From the NCBI GenBank assembly GCA_003990745.1, contig RBNI01002791.1, forward strand, positions 1 through 17,491: a DNA stretch of 17,491 bases, read 5' to 3'. Origin of the DNA: Jimgerdemannia flammicorona (taxonomy: Eukaryota > Mucoromycota > Endogonomycetes > Endogonales > Endogonaceae). The notes under the pieces are model-generated. The model saw only the letters and a list, made by a program, of their open reading frames with translations. It was not told where the DNA came from and searched no databases. This document shows positions 4,871 to 17,491 of this stretch, piece by piece. Position 1 is the first letter of the stretch. Every line of letters begins with the position of its first letter. Position numbers and translations under genes: made by a program.

Positions 4871-4950
4871 GGTGTCGGGCTGTGGAGGAGGTGGTCGGGC
4901 TGCGGAGGAGGTGGTCGGGCTGCGGAGGAGGTGGTCGGGCTGTGGAGGAT
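4871..4950. repeat. 20-bp minisatellite, four copies
   Basis: Four adjacent copies of a 20-base unit close to gtggtcgggctgcggaggag start at 4871, 4891, 4911 and 4931, and differ from each other by one to a few bases. The array begins 85 bp upstream of the ABCA start codon. It falls in that gene's promoter or 5' leader. ORFs across it read as Gly/Val/Cys-rich repeats and are not credible genes. Confidence 0.9.
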
Positions 4951-5048
4951 GTTCGTGCAAAGGAGGAGAATCGGAGGGAATGGCAGCCAGGTTACACGAT
5001 TATTTTGGGATCCAAATGACGCTAGCACGCTAGGTTAAACTGCTATTG

Positions 5049-5134
5049 CTCAAATGGCCTGAGTTTTAAAACCTGATACTGGCTCAAATGGCCTGAGTTT
5101 TAAAAACTGATACTGGCTCAAATGGCCTGAGTTT
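5049..5134. repeat. 34-bp tandem repeat, two full copies plus a partial third
   Basis: A 34-base unit starting ctcaaatggcctgag begins at 5049 and 5083, and an 18-base remnant at 5117-5134. The first two copies are nearly identical. The unit carries CTCA...TGAG ends around an inner GGCC, then a perfect palindrome GTTTTAAAAC (5063-5072) in copy 1; copy 2 has one extra A there. The array lies about 260 bp upstream of the ABCA start codon, so it could be an upstream regulatory array or neutral satellite. Confidence 0.9.
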
Positions 5135-5601: not shown

Positions 5602-5766
5602 GCACACACCTCCTTTTGTTTGTTTGGCATAATCTTTGCTTGTCTGGTGCTTATTAGGTCTCCTTTTATGTGGTTTTGTACATATACTCTTGCTACTAGA
5701 TATCTTCATTTTAATAATATTCCGTCACCTCTTCAGCAAAAAACCAGTGCCAAAAATAAATTACAA

Positions 5767-5768
<2 letters not shown>

Positions 5769-5809
<41 letters not shown>
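5769..5809 (+). repeat. 41-base poly(A) run
   Basis: An unbroken run of 41 A, at the plus-strand 3' end of the AT-rich stretch. A run this long at the 3' side of compositionally distinct DNA is what a non-LTR retroelement or processed-transcript insertion leaves, but slippage of a shorter run would look the same. I found no convincing target-site duplication or reverse-transcriptase remnant. Confidence 0.85.
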
Positions 5810-8997: not shown

Positions 8998-11900
8998 CTA
9001 GCGAACATTTTGCTCAATTGTGGCCAGAATACTTATGAGATTCGTGTCTACGCAGTTGTTTTCTGAGAGATCGCTTGGGGACGACGGTTGCATATCCAGT
9101 TCATATGCCAGCCTCTTGTGTAATTTGAAAAAGAACCAGCGCATGAGGGTGTTGAACTGGTTCATGCTGTGCGCCTGAAACTTCCACCCTTTGAAGTCTT
9201 CGTGCAGCTTGGTTTCGCGCCATGTTATTCCGTCTGTGTGGTAATCTCCCCAATGCACTATAGCATCATCTTTCCGTTTATCGCACGCCATTGCGCGGAG
9301 CTCATTTGTTTTCCGATTGTGCGTGCCAGCGAGACCAGCTGGTTGGTGACAAGAGTGATGTTTCCTCGTGTTGTCGGTATTGTTGTAATGACCACGCTCC
9401 CCCCAGCAGAGAGCCCCGCACCAGAAGCATGCCTCTGTACAACCGAGCCTTCTCATCACTCTCTCGTCCTGCGACGGATTGGTGAAGGTACCATTCTCAC
9501 GATATCGTCTCATTGTCTCTTCGTTATCGAGAACCTTCAGGATGCTCTCGCGAAACACGTCCACATCTGATGCGATCGCCCCCTTGATCAATTTTTCGTC
9601 AGGTGTGTACTCGATCCAATCTACACCATTGGTGGTATAATGCTTGATGAAGTTTTGCATTTTCTGAATTGTGTCCCCATTTGAGATCTTTTGCCTAACC
9701 TGACGGAATTCGTTGTCAAAAGTGGTGTCGAATTCTTCCTCAGTCTCCGTGAAAACGTGTGCGTCCACCTTGCTCTTGAACCATTGATCGATTCGGTGTT
9801 TTGGATTCCTGAAAAATAAAATTGCCTTCTGAAGTCGCCCTCGTTGGACCTCCACAGCGAGTTCCCGAAGATATAAAAGGCGTACGTTCTGGCTGTTCAG
9901 TATCCAGGAAAGACCTAAAACCGAGTTCACCCTCGCCTCGTTGCCTGCATTCTCGGCTTTCTGCATTATCGCTCGAAACAAGTATTCCCCCACAATGTAG
10001 CCTTCGGAGGCGAATGAAAAGCCATACAGGAGCCTTTTGTCAATGGTTGAACGATACTCCTTCTCCATTCGTCCGAGTATCCGGACCGGGCTATTCTGGT
10101 CGTCCCATTTTCGTTGAATTTGTTCCATCTCCACAATGAATTTCTTGAGAACGTATACTTGTAAGGTGTGCTTGAAGGCGGAGGTCAATTTTACATTAAA
10201 TTGCCGTTCGAATTTGGTGATTGACTCTGTTATGCGTTTGTGGAGAACCCGAACGTCCCCTGTCTTGAAATGATCACTCTCCTGATCATCCAACAAGCGT
10301 CTTGGCAACTGGCCGAATTGGTCTTCCAGCCAGTCTATCTCCGGCTCTTTCAAGTGATGGCGTTTCAATCTACTAAGAAATCCTGATGTATCAATCGCCA
10401 CTATTTTCTTGCGAAGACATACTGGCTCCGCCGAATGATAAAGGTCCATGAGGCTGTCGGGCATATTGCTGTACTCTTGCGTCACTTCGTCGTCGATCTG
10501 TCTTTTCACTGGCACCACGTTATCTTTGGAGGATGCGATACGATATATTTCGTCCCAGATTGAGTCCACTATTGTCTTGCGTTCTTCGTTGGTAAATCGC
10601 TTTCCAGTCGGTTGTTTGTCAAGCTCTTCATTCAGACGATTGTTGATATGCCGCATAAATTCCATGTTATAATTTTGCTTCACCAGTAATGCATCAAGTG
10701 TCTGTGTGAGTATCGTCATGGTGGACTGATGGACGTGCTTAATGTGCCGCTTAATTGTAACCATGGTGCTTTGCTCACAATCTTGACGCTTAACGTGCGC
10801 AAAAAGGTCGTCCCATTCCTTGGCTGCTTCGGCGCATTGCTGGCAGAGTCTGGAAGACGGATTGCCGGTGTTCGCTCTTAAGCAAACTTTCGGTATATTT
10901 ACCAGCTCGCTTGAAACTCTTTCCAAGAAGATCTCTCGCTGCTTGTCATCAACGTTCTGCATGTTGATCCATTGCTGCACTTCGCTCCGAATTTTGTTCT
11001 TCAGCTCCGCTGAATGTACATGGAATGCTGCCTCGATGGCCTCTTTCACCTTAGCAATCATCTCGCCGCGTCCGATGAATTCTATAATCTCTTTAACGTT
11101 TTTGAACTGTACCGAAAAATTTTCATGTGACAATGAACTCCAGTAACTCCGCACGAGAGTATGCCACTCCTTGAAATTCATCTTGTTTTGTGCTTGTTGG
11201 CAGGATTGTAGAATGGTCTCGTACAAATCAACCACATCTTCGTGGTATTGTGCGGATGGAGGGGCGTAGGCACTTGCGCCGTTTTTGAACGGACGGAACT
11301 GTTTTAGCAGGTTGTTCTGTCCTGGCTGCAACCTCATAATCAGATTTTTCAGGCAGTCAGCCCCAGCGGCGCCAATCTGGTCGTCTTTCTTTGTCGCAAG
11401 ATCCAACGCTAACTCCAGAGCTTTGCGGAACTGTTCGGTGCCCTGAGATGACTTGCCCTTATTCCTTTCTGTCAGATGTTGAACCATTAGAAGGTCTGGT
11501 GACATTCCAGCCTCCTCAAGGCGCGTCATTGCTACGATGGCGATTTGCAGGATATCTGTCAAGTCGCGCATGTATTCTCCCAAAATGTTGATGAGTGTTA
11601 GGTTGCTCACACCCATTGCGAACGTTGCCAGCATCCGGTCCTTGCGCTCAGCATTAACGTCGTTCGCTTTCTCCGGGGCACCAAGCCCTTCAGTGTCGAT
11701 GAGCAAGATTGCGTCTACCTGCAGCTTTTCACGGAGATCTTCTTCCAAAAATAACAGCCTCATAAAAAGCCCCCGGGTGCAGCGACCAACCGATACGGCG
11801 AATCGACATGCGAAGAGAGCGTTCAGTAACGTTGACTTCCCGGACGACTGCAATCCGAGTATGGTGACAACGAACACTCGGAGGTTTGGGAATCGTACGC

Positions 11901-14900
11901 AGACATGATCGCATATCGCCGAAAGCCAAGCGTCAGGTATGCTGCTCGAATCCCCATCAAGAAGTTCGATCGCGTGACCAGCAATAAGTAGCTCGGCGTA
12001 TCGTTCGGGAAGTTGCAAGACACTGGCGTTTGCTGGATGATCGCGATTGGCTACAAGGGCAATCTCATAAATCTGTCCAAGTTCTCGGAAGAAATGTTCC
12101 GCACCGAGGTTTATACTGTCAACGCGTTCCATGGCATGAGCAATTTGCGTACGTATTCTCCTTTGAACCTCGCTCTTGTCTTTTAGGCCCAGTGTACGCC
12201 AGAGCTCCTCTTGACACTTTGCAACCTGTGCTCGGGATGCCGATGATTCCTCTGTAGAAAGTCTAGAGAGATCACGCTCCAAATGGGCAAGAGCTCGTTG
12301 CCGTTGCGCCAGCGGTAAATTCAATACTTTTACAAACAACGAAATCAATTTTCTCAGATCCGGATTGTCACTCCATAGTCGATATTCATCCTGCGATTGA
12401 TATTTCTGTGGCGATGCAGCGGAAAGGGCAGCTGAGCGGTTTGCCTGAATTCGCATGGTTTTCCTCGTTTTGTAGCAAGTCCTTTCAGTTACAAATTTCA
12501 CTAGATTTCGTGACTCCAAGCACTCAATCCCTTCCGTAAACCTGAGAGAGCTGCCAAGCTGGATATCCTTAAAATTCCCAAACGCTTGTGATGTTCGGAC
12601 CACAGAATTCAGAGCTTGATCGAACATGGAACGGACCTTGGCGAGTGTCCCGTCCTCCATAAGTCGCTTTGTGTCGATGACGTTTTCTTCGGGCTCCTCG
12701 CTCCCGTCAACAGGGTCCACCATGGCGTAAACAATCTGGTCGTCGGAATCGATCATCTGGTTAAATTTGTTCCACTTATCTTCATCGCAATCTGGCATCA
12801 TGAAAACCAAGAACACGGAAGCGAACTGGTTCAAGAATTGAATTACGTCTGGATATTCGACTGCATCGCCATGCAAATTCGCAAGTAGGACAATTGATTT
12901 TTCGCCTCTTCCATAATATCTCTCTAAGACGAATTTCCAGAGACTAGTGCCACAGGTTTCCTGCGTTAACCAGGTAAATTCAACACTTCCATCAAGTGTA
13001 CGGGGCTTCCCTCGTTCGGCACCAGGCTCGGCGCGTGATGAGAACATGTTTTTCGTAATCATCACTTGATTCAGGATAGTGCTCTTCCCTGTTGTTGAAT
13101 GCGTTCCGAGGCGAATGGCAACGAGCAATTGAAAGGGACTTTGAAAGAGATGGTTTTCCACGATCATCCCGGGCTCAGACTCCCACTTAATTGTAGGACC
13201 GAGAAGAGAGGGGAGCATCACCTTGTACACGTTCTCTTGCTCCAAGTCAGGTATCACCAAAGGGAGCGGCATAGGGAATTGTGAAATTATTCGGACGATG
13301 TCTTGCGCCACGGTACTACGTGCGGAGCAGAGAAGTCCGGAGATACAGTCAAACCGTGAGAGGGGCGTGACACGTGCCAACTGAGTGCTAGCTGTGTTAG
13401 CGGGCGCTTTAACCAGCCTCCTGCCAAAAGAAGGGCCAACCTTGGCGGATCCACCACCACTAGCTGGGACAGATTTTGTTTCGTCTTGCACAAGAGCAGA
13501 GACATTCTCCGAACGAAGCACGTCAGTTCCCCACATTTTCACTCTCTGAATAATAAACGGGAGTACAGTGTTTACACAAGCAGCCATGTTCGCCGCGGGG
13601 ATCTTTGGGGATGCGATGATGGAATGAAGCTTCACGAAGTCAGTTGGTGTGATTGCAGATAGCGTTTCGCCCATCACAGATTGCCATTTCTCGTGTATTT
13701 CTAAGGGACCGTCGCGAATGTTGAATTCTACGTCGCAGATGTCCGTCTCCTCGAAGTTGTCGATATCGAGGCGGAAGAGGACTTGTTCTGATGGAGTTGT
13801 TGGTGTGTCAAGTATCGGCTCTTTCCATTGCTCGAGGTTTTGCCAGGCATCCTTAATATGTTTCAGTTGCCAAGGCTCCTTGAATACCTTCTTTTCCGTG
13901 TCCCAGTAGAACAGAACATTGGCTTCAGAAAGCGATCTCTCGAGGTCTTGATTCGTCACAAGCGACTCCGCAAATACTTTACGGAATAACTCTGGCACCT
14001 CGTCATTATTGCTTATAATTCCACCTAGTGTTAGCATAACATCTTCAATAGTGTTCAATTTGCCGGGCATCTCGAACTTCTCCCAAGCATATTTCTCCTT
14101 CAGATTGTTGCGTATATCTTGAGGTAAGTAGTTGGGAAGCGGTGCATTTTCGTCGATGGATTTGCGCACCATGGAAGCAATTGTATCCGAGACGACCTGT
14201 TCTTTGATTCCAGCACGAGCAAGATATAAGAATCGAGAGTTTTGCCACAAGTCCGACCATTGCGCTTCCGTAAATTGGCTTTCCGACGACAATGAATTGA
14301 AAAACTTGACGATGGCATGACGATCTTCCTTACGATTTAAGATATCGATACCGATGAGCCGATCCAGTTCGTAGTGAAGAACAGATAGCTGAGGGTCATA
14401 GGCATGCTTTGCGAGAAATGAGACTATGTGGTACAGTTGTCGGTTCTCCAGATACGTGTCCATTTCTTCCTTCCTACGTAGCTCCCCGAAGCGATCGACA
14501 TACATCGTTAGAGCTGGGTAGACATTCAACGACGTCGGGAATTCTTCATTTCCAATCTGAGACATTTGGCGTAGTAGGGAGCTTAAAACCGTAATTTGTA
14601 GAAACGCGCACGTATCGCCAGAAGCTACTGATCGTTTGTTCAGGCTTCCCAAAACTGCTTTGCATCGGGGCTTGAAATCGTAATCTATTGAATCCACAAT
14701 AGCCTTTCTGACTTCATCTGGGCATCGTGGGTCGTCCATTACGGCTTTGACGGGGAGCTCGGCCGCTTTTTTCAACTCCTCACTCATTTCTTCTGGCAAT
14801 GATAGAACGTGTTCGATGGTCGACCTTGCCGACTCAACTTTCTCCAAGAATGGGTCTTGAGAATTCACCCAGGCGGTTATGGCGCCACAGAGTGATTTGC

Positions 14901-17184
14901 AATTCTGCTTGCTTATTATCTTTTCGCTGAATCGGCCAACCCATCCATGCGGTATTAGAAGCCGCTCTATTTCGGGGTGTTGTCGAACGACGTGACGAGC
15001 GATCGTAGAGATTACATTGACTGTGTCGCCTGCAAGAATACTGCGTGCGACATCCAAGGCATCACTGAGTGATTGATCGGGCAGTTTCTGAAATGCCGGC
15101 ATTTCGAATCTCGCTGAATCCGGCCTGTGCCCGCTGACTTTCGGCATCGTTTTCATGAGTTCGATGGCAAAGCGGGCGCGATCAGGATAGAGTGAATGAT
15201 CGAGGGAGTAAGGTGACAAGAAGGAGAAATCCGGTTCTTGGGAGTCCTGGGGCTTGTTGTTTGCGAGGTGCACGAGAATGAGAAGATCCAAATTGTCCAG
15301 ACATACGGCACGAAGCTCTCCACCGCGAAACACGCATAAAAGAGGCGCTGCGTAGAGATTCGCGGGCCCTAGAGTGCCAACTATCCATTCAATATCCCCA
15401 AACGTCAGCTGAGATCGCAATGTACGAAGCTGAATTACGGCGTCCAACGCGTCCAAGGAGACAAATAACTTCCACTTTGTATCGTCTTCAGAGTGACGGC
15501 AACTCAAACGCTCGAGCGTATCCATACGGGAGCGAGCGAGGTATACCCCCTGGTTAAAGTTCAACATGGACACCAATTCGTTCAAATCATTTAAACGCTC
15601 TTGTTGCAACGGTAGGTGCTTTCCGAACTGAGAGGCGTTAATTTCGTGGAATCGCGTCTCGATTGGCTCGCCCATTCCCACCGCGACACTCAAAATACTA
15701 AGGACGTGAGGAATGTTGACTGCATGGTGAATTGCTGCTTTGTCATACACTTTGATGGTCAGAGAAAACTCATCCGAAATGCAGGGTAGCGCGATTCCAA
15801 CATCGACGCCATTCTGCTGGAGTAATTTTCTGAGGGCAAAAAGGTGGCGAAACGCGCCGTCGGAGGACTGTCCACCAGTGCGCAGCAATATTTTGATATT
15901 CGTTTCCGTATTTATCCAATCGTCCAATTCGTGGGGATTGCTGAAGAGAGTGATATCCACTTTCATTAGTTTGGCGCCGCCTTCATGTACTCCTCTTAAT
16001 TCGCCTTTTCCGCTGAGCACAAATTCTTCGATCTTGGCGTACACGTTCATCACGCTGAATTCGCATGCCGAGTATTCGCGCACAATTTTGACAAGATCCA
16101 CATCTTTACTGCGGGCAATCTTGTAAGCTTCGAGGGCCTTGTAAGCGCGCCCGAAATAAATGTCGGCGGCCTCCCGCAGTTCCTTTTCGTAAATCGTGAT
16201 TTGTTCCGACAATGGAGACTTGGGATCCGACAAGATGACGTGCAGACGTGGTTCGATCTCCAGCACACTGTTCCAGACGTACCCGGAGATCCGAAAATCC
16301 TGAAGAGCCAGAAGTATCACGCGGAAACGTTCCAATATATCGTCATGCAATTGCAAGTATAGCTTTTCCAATTTCAAGTCGAGGAACTGACCCACAGGGA
16401 CAAGCTCAAAGCGAATGGGCACCCCCGTGATGCTCGCGTCGATGATTTGAAAGTGTCGTTCGGCGGCAATATGTGTATCTATCTTCTCTACCAGTTCGAA
16501 CACTTGTTTGATAGTCGACGGCTGGGTCTTCATTGGCGGTTTGGATTGCACAATGATCCGCGTTTCGTGACCACCCCCGTTCTCGGCGTCCATGAGCTCC
16601 AGTTCAGCCTTCAAAGACGTATCGATGGGGCCATATGCGAGTTTTCCAAGTACTCTGTTCTTGCCTTCACGGCTCGATGTCTCCCGCGAGATGAATATAT
16701 GGGCATTCACCTCCGCACCGAGGGTCATGCCGCATACCACATGAGTTGCCTTGATTTCACCACTAAGGAGCCGATTCTTCACCGAATCATCCACAATTTC
16801 TTTGACCTGGGGAAGCAGCTTGACCGAGTAGCTTTCAAGGAGGTATTGAACGACGAGGTGCCCGTCACTAGCGTTTTTGATGGCGTCGTCGTATTCGACT
16901 TTGATGAGGCCGGACAACAGCTCAATAGACATCGCACCGCCGATGTTAGCCATCTTGAATTTGTCCTCGGCGCTTCTCACACGGGTTAGGCGGTAGTCAA
17001 AATTCTGAAGGGATTCGGCCTTCATGTGTCCTTTTTCAGGTTCCTTGGTGAACAGGTTGGAGCCGGAGGGCTTGGAAAGGTGGCAGTCCCAAAGGTCCCC
17101 AAGACCACATACTCCATCTTTGAGCTTCGGAAATGTGAAGCTCATATCCTCCACGTACAAGCCTTCTTGTTTAGGAATAATCAT
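8998..17184 (-). CDS. Giant SNTX-like (MACPF-related) / VLIG-type GTPase fusion, 2728 residues, intronless
   Basis: Single ORF from ATG 17184 (in-frame TAA 12 bases upstream) to TAG 8998-9000. Residues 1-265 resemble the stonustoxin-branch MACPF-like domain: DLWDCHL near the start, SAEDK, LLSGLI, THVV (147-150), LGAEV, and closing GVPIRFELVP (from 254). Then come a helical segment (~265-405) and a thioredoxin-like segment (~409-515), the order seen in SNTX proteins, and about 780 residues of mostly helical, unassigned sequence. The VLIG/URGCP part has QFPMPLPLVIPD (1302-1313), first P-loop GTHSTTGKS (1360-1368), ANLHGDA (Asp1440), EHFFRELGQIYE (1696-1707), second P-loop GLQSSGKST (1777-1785), GRCTRG (Thr1803), DTEGLG (1830-1835) and QHLTERNK (1902-1909, the G4 position). 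Another helical region and a CxxCGALCW Cys/His cluster (2586 on) end it. There is no signal peptide or membrane anchor, so it is probably cytosolic. A defence or recognition role is inferred only. Confidence 0.85.
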   Translation of the reverse strand: MIIPKQEGLYVEDMSFTFPKLKDGVCGLGDLWDCHLSKPSGSNLFTKEPEKGHMKAESLQNFDYRLTRVRSAEDKFKMANIGGAMSIELLSGLIKVEYDDAIKNASDGHLVVQYLLESYSVKLLPQVKEIVDDSVKNRLLSGEIKATHVVCGMTLGAEVNAHIFISRETSSREGKNRVLGKLAYGPIDTSLKAELELMDAENGGGHETRIIVQSKPPMKTQPSTIKQVFELVEKIDTHIAAERHFQIIDASITGVPIRFELVPVGQFLDLKLEKLYLQLHDDILERFRVILLALQDFRISGYVWNSVLEIEPRLHVILSDPKSPLSEQITIYEKELREAADIYFGRAYKALEAYKIARSKDVDLVKIVREYSACEFSVMNVYAKIEEFVLSGKGELRGVHEGGAKLMKVDITLFSNPHELDDWINTETNIKILLRTGGQSSDGAFRHLFALRKLLQQNGVDVGIALPCISDEFSLTIKVYDKAAIHHAVNIPHVLSILSVAVGMGEPIETRFHEINASQFGKHLPLQQERLNDLNELVSMLNFNQGVYLARSRMDTLERLSCRHSEDDTKWKLFVSLDALDAVIQLRTLRSQLTFGDIEWIVGTLGPANLYAAPLLCVFRGGELRAVCLDNLDLLILVHLANNKPQDSQEPDFSFLSPYSLDHSLYPDRARFAIELMKTMPKVSGHRPDSARFEMPAFQKLPDQSLSDALDVARSILAGDTVNVISTIARHVVRQHPEIERLLIPHGWVGRFSEKIISKQNCKSLCGAITAWVNSQDPFLEKVESARSTIEHVLSLPEEMSEELKKAAELPVKAVMDDPRCPDEVRKAIVDSIDYDFKPRCKAVLGSLNKRSVASGDTCAFLQITVLSSLLRQMSQIGNEEFPTSLNVYPALTMYVDRFGELRRKEEMDTYLENRQLYHIVSFLAKHAYDPQLSVLHYELDRLIGIDILNRKEDRHAIVKFFNSLSSESQFTEAQWSDLWQNSRFLYLARAGIKEQVVSDTIASMVRKSIDENAPLPNYLPQDIRNNLKEKYAWEKFEMPGKLNTIEDVMLTLGGIISNNDEVPELFRKVFAESLVTNQDLERSLSEANVLFYWDTEKKVFKEPWQLKHIKDAWQNLEQWKEPILDTPTTPSEQVLFRLDIDNFEETDICDVEFNIRDGPLEIHEKWQSVMGETLSAITPTDFVKLHSIIASPKIPAANMAACVNTVLPFIIQRVKMWGTDVLRSENVSALVQDETKSVPASGGGSAKVGPSFGRRLVKAPANTASTQLARVTPLSRFDCISGLLCSARSTVAQDIVRIISQFPMPLPLVIPDLEQENVYKVMLPSLLGPTIKWESEPGMIVENHLFQSPFQLLVAIRLGTHSTTGKSTILNQVMITKNMFSSRAEPGAERGKPRTLDGSVEFTWLTQETCGTSLWKFVLERYYGRGEKSIVLLANLHGDAVEYPDVIQFLNQFASVFLVFMMPDCDEDKWNKFNQMIDSDDQIVYAMVDPVDGSEEPEENVIDTKRLMEDGTLAKVRSMFDQALNSVVRTSQAFGNFKDIQLGSSLRFTEGIECLESRNLVKFVTERTCYKTRKTMRIQANRSAALSAASPQKYQSQDEYRLWSDNPDLRKLISLFVKVLNLPLAQRQRALAHLERDLSRLSTEESSASRAQVAKCQEELWRTLGLKDKSEVQRRIRTQIAHAMERVDSINLGAEHFFRELGQIYEIALVANRDHPANASVLQLPERYAELLIAGHAIELLDGDSSSIPDAWLSAICDHVCVRFPNLRVFVVTILGLQSSGKSTLLNALFACRFAVSVGRCTRGLFMRLLFLEEDLREKLQVDAILLIDTEGLGAPEKANDVNAERKDRMLATFAMGVSNLTLINILGEYMRDLTDILQIAIVAMTRLEEAGMSPDLLMVQHLTERNKGKSSQGTEQFRKALELALDLATKKDDQIGAAGADCLKNLIMRLQPGQNNLLKQFRPFKNGASAYAPPSAQYHEDVVDLYETILQSCQQAQNKMNFKEWHTLVRSYWSSLSHENFSVQFKNVKEIIEFIGRGEMIAKVKEAIEAAFHVHSAELKNKIRSEVQQWINMQNVDDKQREIFLERVSSELVNIPKVCLRANTGNPSSRLCQQCAEAAKEWDDLFAHVKRQDCEQSTMVTIKRHIKHVHQSTMTILTQTLDALLVKQNYNMEFMRHINNRLNEELDKQPTGKRFTNEERKTIVDSIWDEIYRIASSKDNVVPVKRQIDDEVTQEYSNMPDSLMDLYHSAEPVCLRKKIVAIDTSGFLSRLKRHHLKEPEIDWLEDQFGQLPRRLLDDQESDHFKTGDVRVLHKRITESITKFERQFNVKLTSAFKHTLQVYVLKKFIVEMEQIQRKWDDQNSPVRILGRMEKEYRSTIDKRLLYGFSFASEGYIVGEYLFRAIMQKAENAGNEARVNSVLGLSWILNSQNVRLLYLRELAVEVQRGRLQKAILFFRNPKHRIDQWFKSKVDAHVFTETEEEFDTTFDNEFRQVRQKISNGDTIQKMQNFIKHYTTNGVDWIEYTPDEKLIKGAIASDVDVFRESILKVLDNEETMRRYRENGTFTNPSQDERVMRRLGCTEACFWCGALCWGERGHYNNTDNTRKHHSCHQPAGLAGTHNRKTNELRAMACDKRKDDAIVHWGDYHTDGITWRETKLHEDFKGWKFQAHSMNQFNTLMRWFFFKLHKRLAYELDMQPSSPSDLSENNCVDTNLISILATIEQNVR

Positions 17185-17491
17185 ACTGCTTGATTACTGT
17201 AAAAAAAAAAAAAAAAAAAAAAAAGAAAAAAATTGAGCAACGCAAGGTTATAAACTCATGTCGTTCCAGAATCAGGAACCACAATCCCCAAATGATAAAA
17301 GTGCCTCGAAAAACGCATAAATAGGTATGTAAAAAGAAGAAAAATGTATTTAGTGATACTAACCACAATGCTTCGACCGTTATACTTATGCTGGTAAGTA
17401 TGCGATATTTTAAAGTCGTAGGAATCCTGCAAGAGCCGGAGTAAGTCGAAATGTCAATAGTCGCAAAATAACGGGAATATTCGGGGGGGGG
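17185..17491 (-). other. 5' flank of the giant gene, possible leader intron
   Basis: Reading on the minus strand, 24 T (17201-17224) are followed by ACAG and, 12 bases later, by the ATG. A pyrimidine tract plus CAG is a good acceptor context, and a GTTAGT donor candidate sits at 17363-17358, which would give a 167-bp intron in the leader. An upstream coding exon using this acceptor in phase would run into TAA at once. No other gene is visible. The window ends in nine G. Confidence 0.4.
17201..17224. repeat. 24-base A/T homopolymer just upstream of the giant gene
   Basis: A on plus, T on minus, with a further interrupted A tract to 17231. In the minus-strand gene it acts either as a poly(dT) promoter element that excludes nucleosomes or as the pyrimidine tract of a leader intron. 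Confidence 0.8.

Follow-up and report, generated by a model that had tools for sequence, protein, structure and literature searches.

Background and the locus

Vertebrate very large GTPases of the VLIG family are encoded by a single giant coding exon. In mammals, the coats built by GBP and GVIN proteins and the detergent-like or pore-forming effectors are split among different proteins. GTPases of the Sey1p, GBP and atlastin kinds form dimers when they bind GTP and have membranes as their substrate, and modular immune receptors of the NLR type place a swappable N-terminal effector before an assembling nucleotide-binding platform. Human GVIN1, for which two large-GTPase (LG) domains are predicted, coats cytosolic bacteria as an antimicrobial defence (PMC11974893). 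For the fish cytolysin stonustoxin (SNTX), the published domain borders are 1–265, 266–385 and 386–517, and a pre-pore in which MACPF domains are packed has been described (PMC8704401). Here we describe a gene of the fungus Jimgerdemannia flammicorona (contig RBNI01002791.1) that joins both types of protein. It lies in a stretch of 17,491 nucleotides, called the window below.

An SNTX-type module and a VLIG-type GTPase in one frame

The open reading frame (ORF) at 8998..17184 on the minus strand runs without interruption for 2,728 codons from ATG to TAG, and in-frame stops precede its ATG. Both halves of the protein are encoded in this one intron-free frame. An initial sequence-only reading had proposed that an SNTX-type MACPF module is joined here to a VLIG GTPase, and this is borne out by profile, reciprocal-profile and fold searches together with 17 other proteins that have this order, several as partial models. 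Relatives from Ambispora, Dentiscutata and two lamprey proteins are co-linear with the window protein at 42–46% identity over 99–100% of the query, and a springtail relative shows about 30% identity. Since co-linear relatives exist in independent genomes, chance or misassembly is excluded as the source of the fusion, which on these comparisons we consider real. An annotation or assembly artefact merging two genes, for which no supporting point was found, is hardly credible, given the single intron-free frame and the same order in the 17 other proteins, several of them on contigs 1.0–15.5 Mb long.

The N-terminal module

A stonustoxin-type MACPF/perforin-like domain was assigned to residues 1–265 (16390..17184, minus strand) by family and reciprocal profiles. 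The N-terminal family profile matched both stonustoxin chains in PDB (4wvm_B, E 1.3e-10; 4wvm_A, E 1.1e-9), and a reciprocal profile of vertebrate SNTX proteins scored 29.3 bits on the window protein, the best control reaching 3.6. We regard the MACPF homology of this domain, as judged from the profiles, as firm. The window protein's own sequence does not reach Pfam MACPF_SNTX (PF24674); the SNTX link is visible via family profiles and not from the window sequence alone. A profile search of residues 1–265, suggested by the sequence-only reading, yielded stonustoxin only by way of the family profile. The first 560 residues alone matched no Pfam family at a limit of E 10, in a search whose HMMER filters discard most weak matches, and MACPF_SNTX was absent among the best 25 of 27 families listed for 11 aligned members. 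Three motifs picked out earlier, SAEDK, THVV and LGAEV, fall within the part matched by the family profile to residues 15–192 of stonustoxin chain B; a fourth, GVPIRFELVP, lies beyond this part and aligns only when profiles are compared with those of animal SNTX proteins.

The two following domains are predicted from a fold model. AF2 and the VIA fold match place a helical (FAT-like) domain, located as in stonustoxin, at residues 266–405 (15970..16389, minus strand), with pLDDT of 66–94 in ten-residue blocks of 281–400 and low values on either side. A thioredoxin-like domain without a CxxC motif is placed by predicted fold at residues 406–545 (15550..15969, minus strand). Stonustoxin was the top match of the predicted N-terminal fold: the best VIA match was 4wvm_A, with model residues 280–497 aligned on chain residues 265–508. 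AF2 confidence was low over residues 1–265, the MACPF part being poorly modelled. Neither profile-profile comparison nor the reciprocal profile gave a sequence match for the helical domain, and the reciprocal SNTX profile found none that was recognisable for the thioredoxin-like part. By predicted fold, the two parts would stand in stonustoxin order. Borders first proposed at about 1–265, 265–405 and 409–515 agree with the published ones and with the fold alignment.

Identity between the window protein and lamprey protein P0005 is 49, 45 and 46% across the three SNTX subdomains and 33% in the region that follows. This long middle region (residues 546–1277; 13354..15549, minus strand) holds no named domain in the Pfam scan and is weakly conserved, with 31–38% identity to the Ambispora, Dentiscutata and two lamprey proteins. 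The tighter conservation of the SNTX module argues that it is in use.

The homology to stonustoxin, a venom protein, might suggest a killer or venom-like toxin that leaves the cell and, like stonustoxin, lyses others. We consider this very unlikely: the highest 19-residue hydropathy mean is 1.54 (0.29 near the N-terminus), and these means reveal no signal-peptide-like or transmembrane-like hydrophobic stretch; the chain of 2,728 residues includes a GTPase that requires cytosolic GTP; and the PRYSPRY domain of stonustoxin has no Pfam match in the window protein at E up to 1. Because this last match is missing, we do not file the protein as a stonustoxin-type fish cytolysin.

The GTPase half

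In the full protein, Pfam detected URGCP and URGCP_GTPase and nothing further above cut-off. URGCP (PF25496), likely the first LG domain (LG1), was assigned to residues 1278–1500 (12685..13353, minus strand), the match at 1278–1497 reaching 75.1 bits against a cut-off of 27 (E 7.9e-21). URGCP_GTPase, which holds the second LG domain (LG2), covers residues 1597–1907 (11464..12396, minus strand) with 233.6 bits against 55 (E 4.3e-69). The early description of a complete VLIG GTPase holds.

LG1 contains a P-loop-like motif at residues 1360–1369 (13078..13107, minus strand), found by motif search and matching the LG2 P-loop in a profile comparison (probability 91% over 30 columns). Such a motif is present in 54 of the 64 matched LG1 (URGCP) domains; the ten lacking it are outside the clade that we call fungal-type (fungi, lampreys, two arthropods and further contigs including the window) or come from proteins of unnamed origin. 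Both GTPase-like domains retain P-loops in the fungal-type members. LG2 combines a large-GTPase fold with canonical G1 (P-loop GLQSSGKST, residues 1777–1785; 11830..11856, minus strand) and G3 (DTEG, residues 1830–1833; 11686..11697, minus strand), while the same motif analysis identified no G4. Closer to the C-terminus, a Cys/His cluster, likely zinc-binding from its pattern, lies at residues 2582–2615 (9340..9441, minus strand), and the pattern recurs in 43 of the 49 proteins whose C-terminal region was matched.

In fold searches, LG2 is matched best by Sey1p, GBPs and atlastins. These matches would fit a housekeeping role in membrane remodelling like that of Sey1p or atlastin, with the module docking on an organelle and the GTPase tethering or fusing membranes. 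This role seems improbable, as the protein lacks a transmembrane-like segment, and the patchy distribution among the collected proteins and the swapped N-termini described below look like a fast-evolving accessory system.

Distribution and evolution of the fusion

A search with residues 1270–2728 returned 68 proteins, and 74 were collected across all searches; these reach only proteins of similar length sharing short words, and the lists are not a census. In 18 of the 74, local profiles found MACPF, helical and thioredoxin-like segments followed by at least URGCP, and 17 of these 18 also match the G domain. Six are from Glomeromycotina: two from Ambispora gerdemannii, one from Dentiscutata erythropus, two from Gigaspora margarita and one from Cetraspora pellucida. 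The lineage was looked up in the database for Ambispora only; the other three genera we take to be Glomeromycotina. Eight are from lampreys (Petromyzon marinus, four; Lethenteron reissneri, two; Lampetra fluviatilis and L. planeri, one each), and the remainder are the springtail Folsomia candida, the fungus gnat Bradysia odoriphaga, the window and P0002. Some models are partial or odd: P0012 ends in URGCP, and P0002, P0011, P0057 and P0059 are without C-terminal parts. P0010 (Lampetra fluviatilis) carries two almost complete SNTX modules one after the other and a truncated G domain, and may be a merged gene model. The Folsomia, Bradysia and five lamprey copies are those located on the megabase-sized contigs mentioned above, which argues against contamination for the animal copies.

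Among the proteins collected, this domain order, for which a survey of other early-diverging fungi had been proposed at the outset, occurs in Glomeromycotina and also in animals. Neither this contig nor fungi alone have the fusion: four Glomeromycotina species carry it, as do four lamprey species, a springtail and a fungus gnat. Database entries name these relatives 'uncharacterized', 'CDS' or 'very large GTPase', among other names, and list Pfam domains without SNTX. Three fungal relatives (P0024, P0029 and P0039) are already labelled VLIG-type or very-large-GTPase-like.

A looser version was found in Hydra vulgaris, where P0071 has an SNTX MACPF stretch (residues 24–206) before FN3 and an animal-type VLIG. 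This stretch scored 38.7 bits with the vertebrate SNTX profile and 22.7 bits with PF24674, under the cut-off of 27, and was missed by the fungal-type profile. The Hydra protein suggests that the SNTX-VLIG pairing may be older or may have arisen more than once.

Trees were built from 11 rows, from a second set of 11 rows with an outgroup, and from 47 and 27 of the 74 proteins. The fungal-type clade is split from other VLIGs with an SH-aLRT of 100 in the 47-row and 27-row trees, and the branch to the outgroup VLIGs measures 1.72 + 1.72 changes per column in the former. The lamprey proteins group into a single clade in the trees of 11, 47 and 27 rows; the forks among groups are not resolved in the 11-row tree with the outgroup. 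In the 27-row tree, forcing the named fungi into one clade lowers the log-likelihood by 1.19 units (p-AU 0.29), and uniting fungi, window and P0002 lowers it by 2.46 (p-AU 0.234). The patchy spread makes gene transfer between fungi and animals an attractive explanation, but with differences of this size the tree does not demonstrate it.

Varied N-termini and proposed function

Ten relatives were scanned with Pfam for domains before the VLIG platform. Besides P0010, described above, they include proteins with a protein kinase (P0046 and P0058, Gigaspora), kinase and TPR (P0034, Cetraspora), TPR slightly under cut-off (P0033, Entrophospora), RING (P0019, Petromyzon), B-box (P0020, Lethenteron) and CIDE-N (P0048). 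FHA and GGDEF precede the platform in P0056 (Cetraspora), possibly a chimeric gene model, and lipase_3 in P0072, a more distant VLIG. P0074, a distant VLIG-type protein, has a von Willebrand A-type domain among its precomputed Pfam domains. The RING and B-box proteins of lampreys fall within the lamprey SNTX-VLIG clade of the 47-row tree, and it appears from this placement that the N-terminus was swapped there while the GTPase platform stayed. The family looks like a modular system of effector plus assembly platform.

Everything beyond the domain assignments, a sensor or effector role included, we infer. Our preferred reading, to which we assign a probability of roughly 45%, is that a stonustoxin-type MACPF module and a VLIG/GVIN-type GTPase with P-loops in two domains form a likely cytosolic defence protein, in which GTP would drive assembly, gathering the perforin-like module on a membrane and opening that membrane. 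The fold matches of LG2 to Sey1p, GBPs and atlastins speak for this reading too. The protein would stay in the cytosol, as the hydropathy suggests. On nucleotide binding, the GTPase half may form dimers and polymers on the surface of its target, by analogy with human GVIN1 and GBP1, and the many MACPF domains packed side by side could form a pre-pore and then a pore, as in stonustoxin. The pore might be directed at an invader's membrane or, as controlled death, at the cell's own membranes. Since kinase, TPR, RING, B-box or CIDE-N domains stand at the N-terminus of relatives, the effector there would be exchangeable, and the GTPase half would serve as a common platform for assembly.

The main rival is a non-lytic scaffold, in which the SNTX-type module would have lost pore formation and would give a GBP/atlastin-like coat a surface for oligomerising or for docking on membranes, the output being signalling or cell-autonomous immobilisation of microbes. 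Members with non-lytic N-termini (kinase, TPR, RING, B-box) on the same platform speak for it, as do the poor AF2 model of the MACPF part and the action of human GVIN1 as a coat (PMC11974893). The MACPF part is, however, conserved in fungi, lampreys and a springtail, and the fungus-gnat member clears the general MACPF cut-off of Pfam (26.1 vs 21.5 bits). We hold the scaffold to be possible but on the unlikely side.

A wider proposal, also doubtful, is an NLR-like fungal immune system built on VLIG GTPases, in which the twin-P-loop platform would polymerise on an intracellular target and fire the effector fused to its front. Mycorrhizal fungi would use a perforin-like pore module, a kinase or an adaptor of TPR type as effector, P0048 a CIDE-N death domain and lampreys RING or B-box; whole genes, SNTX module included, would have passed between fungi and animals such as lampreys, springtails and fungus gnats.

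One chain in fungi and lampreys combines a perforin-like module with a coat-forming type of immune GTPase. If this is confirmed, both the role of VLIG GTPases and fungal defence against cytoplasmic invaders become directly testable. It would also bear on the origin of SNTX proteins before their use in venom.

Surroundings of the gene

Genes in the window are closely spaced. The neighbours are an ABC transporter (ABC_tran, 65.5 bits), a fragment of a zinc-type dehydrogenase (ADH_zinc_N, 56.6 bits) and a methyltransferase-like gene with Pfam matches slightly under the cut-offs. The ABC transporter and methyltransferase-like genes have apparent GT-AG introns, two of which measure 113 and 102 bases. 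Close spacing and introns of this kind fit the compact genome of a eukaryote such as a fungus. Short tandem repeats with units of 20 and 34 bases (4874–4949 and 5037–5134) and a 45-base A run (5765–5809) lie in the interval that separates the ABC transporter gene from the dehydrogenase gene. A short way upstream of the ATG of the giant ORF there is a 32-base A run at 17201–17232, a T run on the coding strand.

Comparison with known systems

The window protein resembles VLIG/GVIN proteins (human GVIN1, fish 'interferon-induced very large GTPase 1-like') in having URGCP and URGCP_GTPase above the Pfam cut-offs and a giant intron-free ORF, read here from DNA. It differs from them in its SNTX N-terminus and in belonging to a distant clade that kept the LG1 P-loop-like motif. 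Interferon, to our knowledge, does not exist in fungi. The two LG domains match the published prediction for GVIN1 (PMC11974893).

With GBPs, atlastins and Sey1p the protein shares the LG fold and, in LG2, canonical G1 and G3, but its chain is much longer, has two P-loop-bearing domains and carries the SNTX module. The swappable effector before an assembling nucleotide-binding platform recalls NLR-type receptors, whereas the platform here is GBP/atlastin-like: Pfam found no NACHT or NB-ARC above cut-off in the window protein, a NACHT-associated helical match staying below threshold (14.2 bits vs 27).

Stonustoxin and SNTX-like animal proteins (4wvm; fish and reptile P0014–P0017) share the MACPF domain by sequence and, by predicted fold, the order MACPF, helical, thioredoxin-like. 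In the window protein, unlike these, the two latter parts are unrecognisable by sequence, PRYSPRY is unmatched, and about 2,180 more residues, including the VLIG GTPase, follow the module. A further comparison is offered by fusions of SNTX with AIG1 (GIMAP-type) in Pantherophis (P0014), Engraulis (P0016) and Candoia (P0017), identified by Pfam scan in P0017 and from precomputed domains in the other two. They also join an SNTX module and an immune-type GTPase in one chain, but the GTPase is of another family, and in P0017 the best AIG1 stretch (36–240) precedes the module, with weaker GTPase matches after it. Together with these reptile and fish proteins, the window protein makes it seem that SNTX modules pair repeatedly with immune GTPases.
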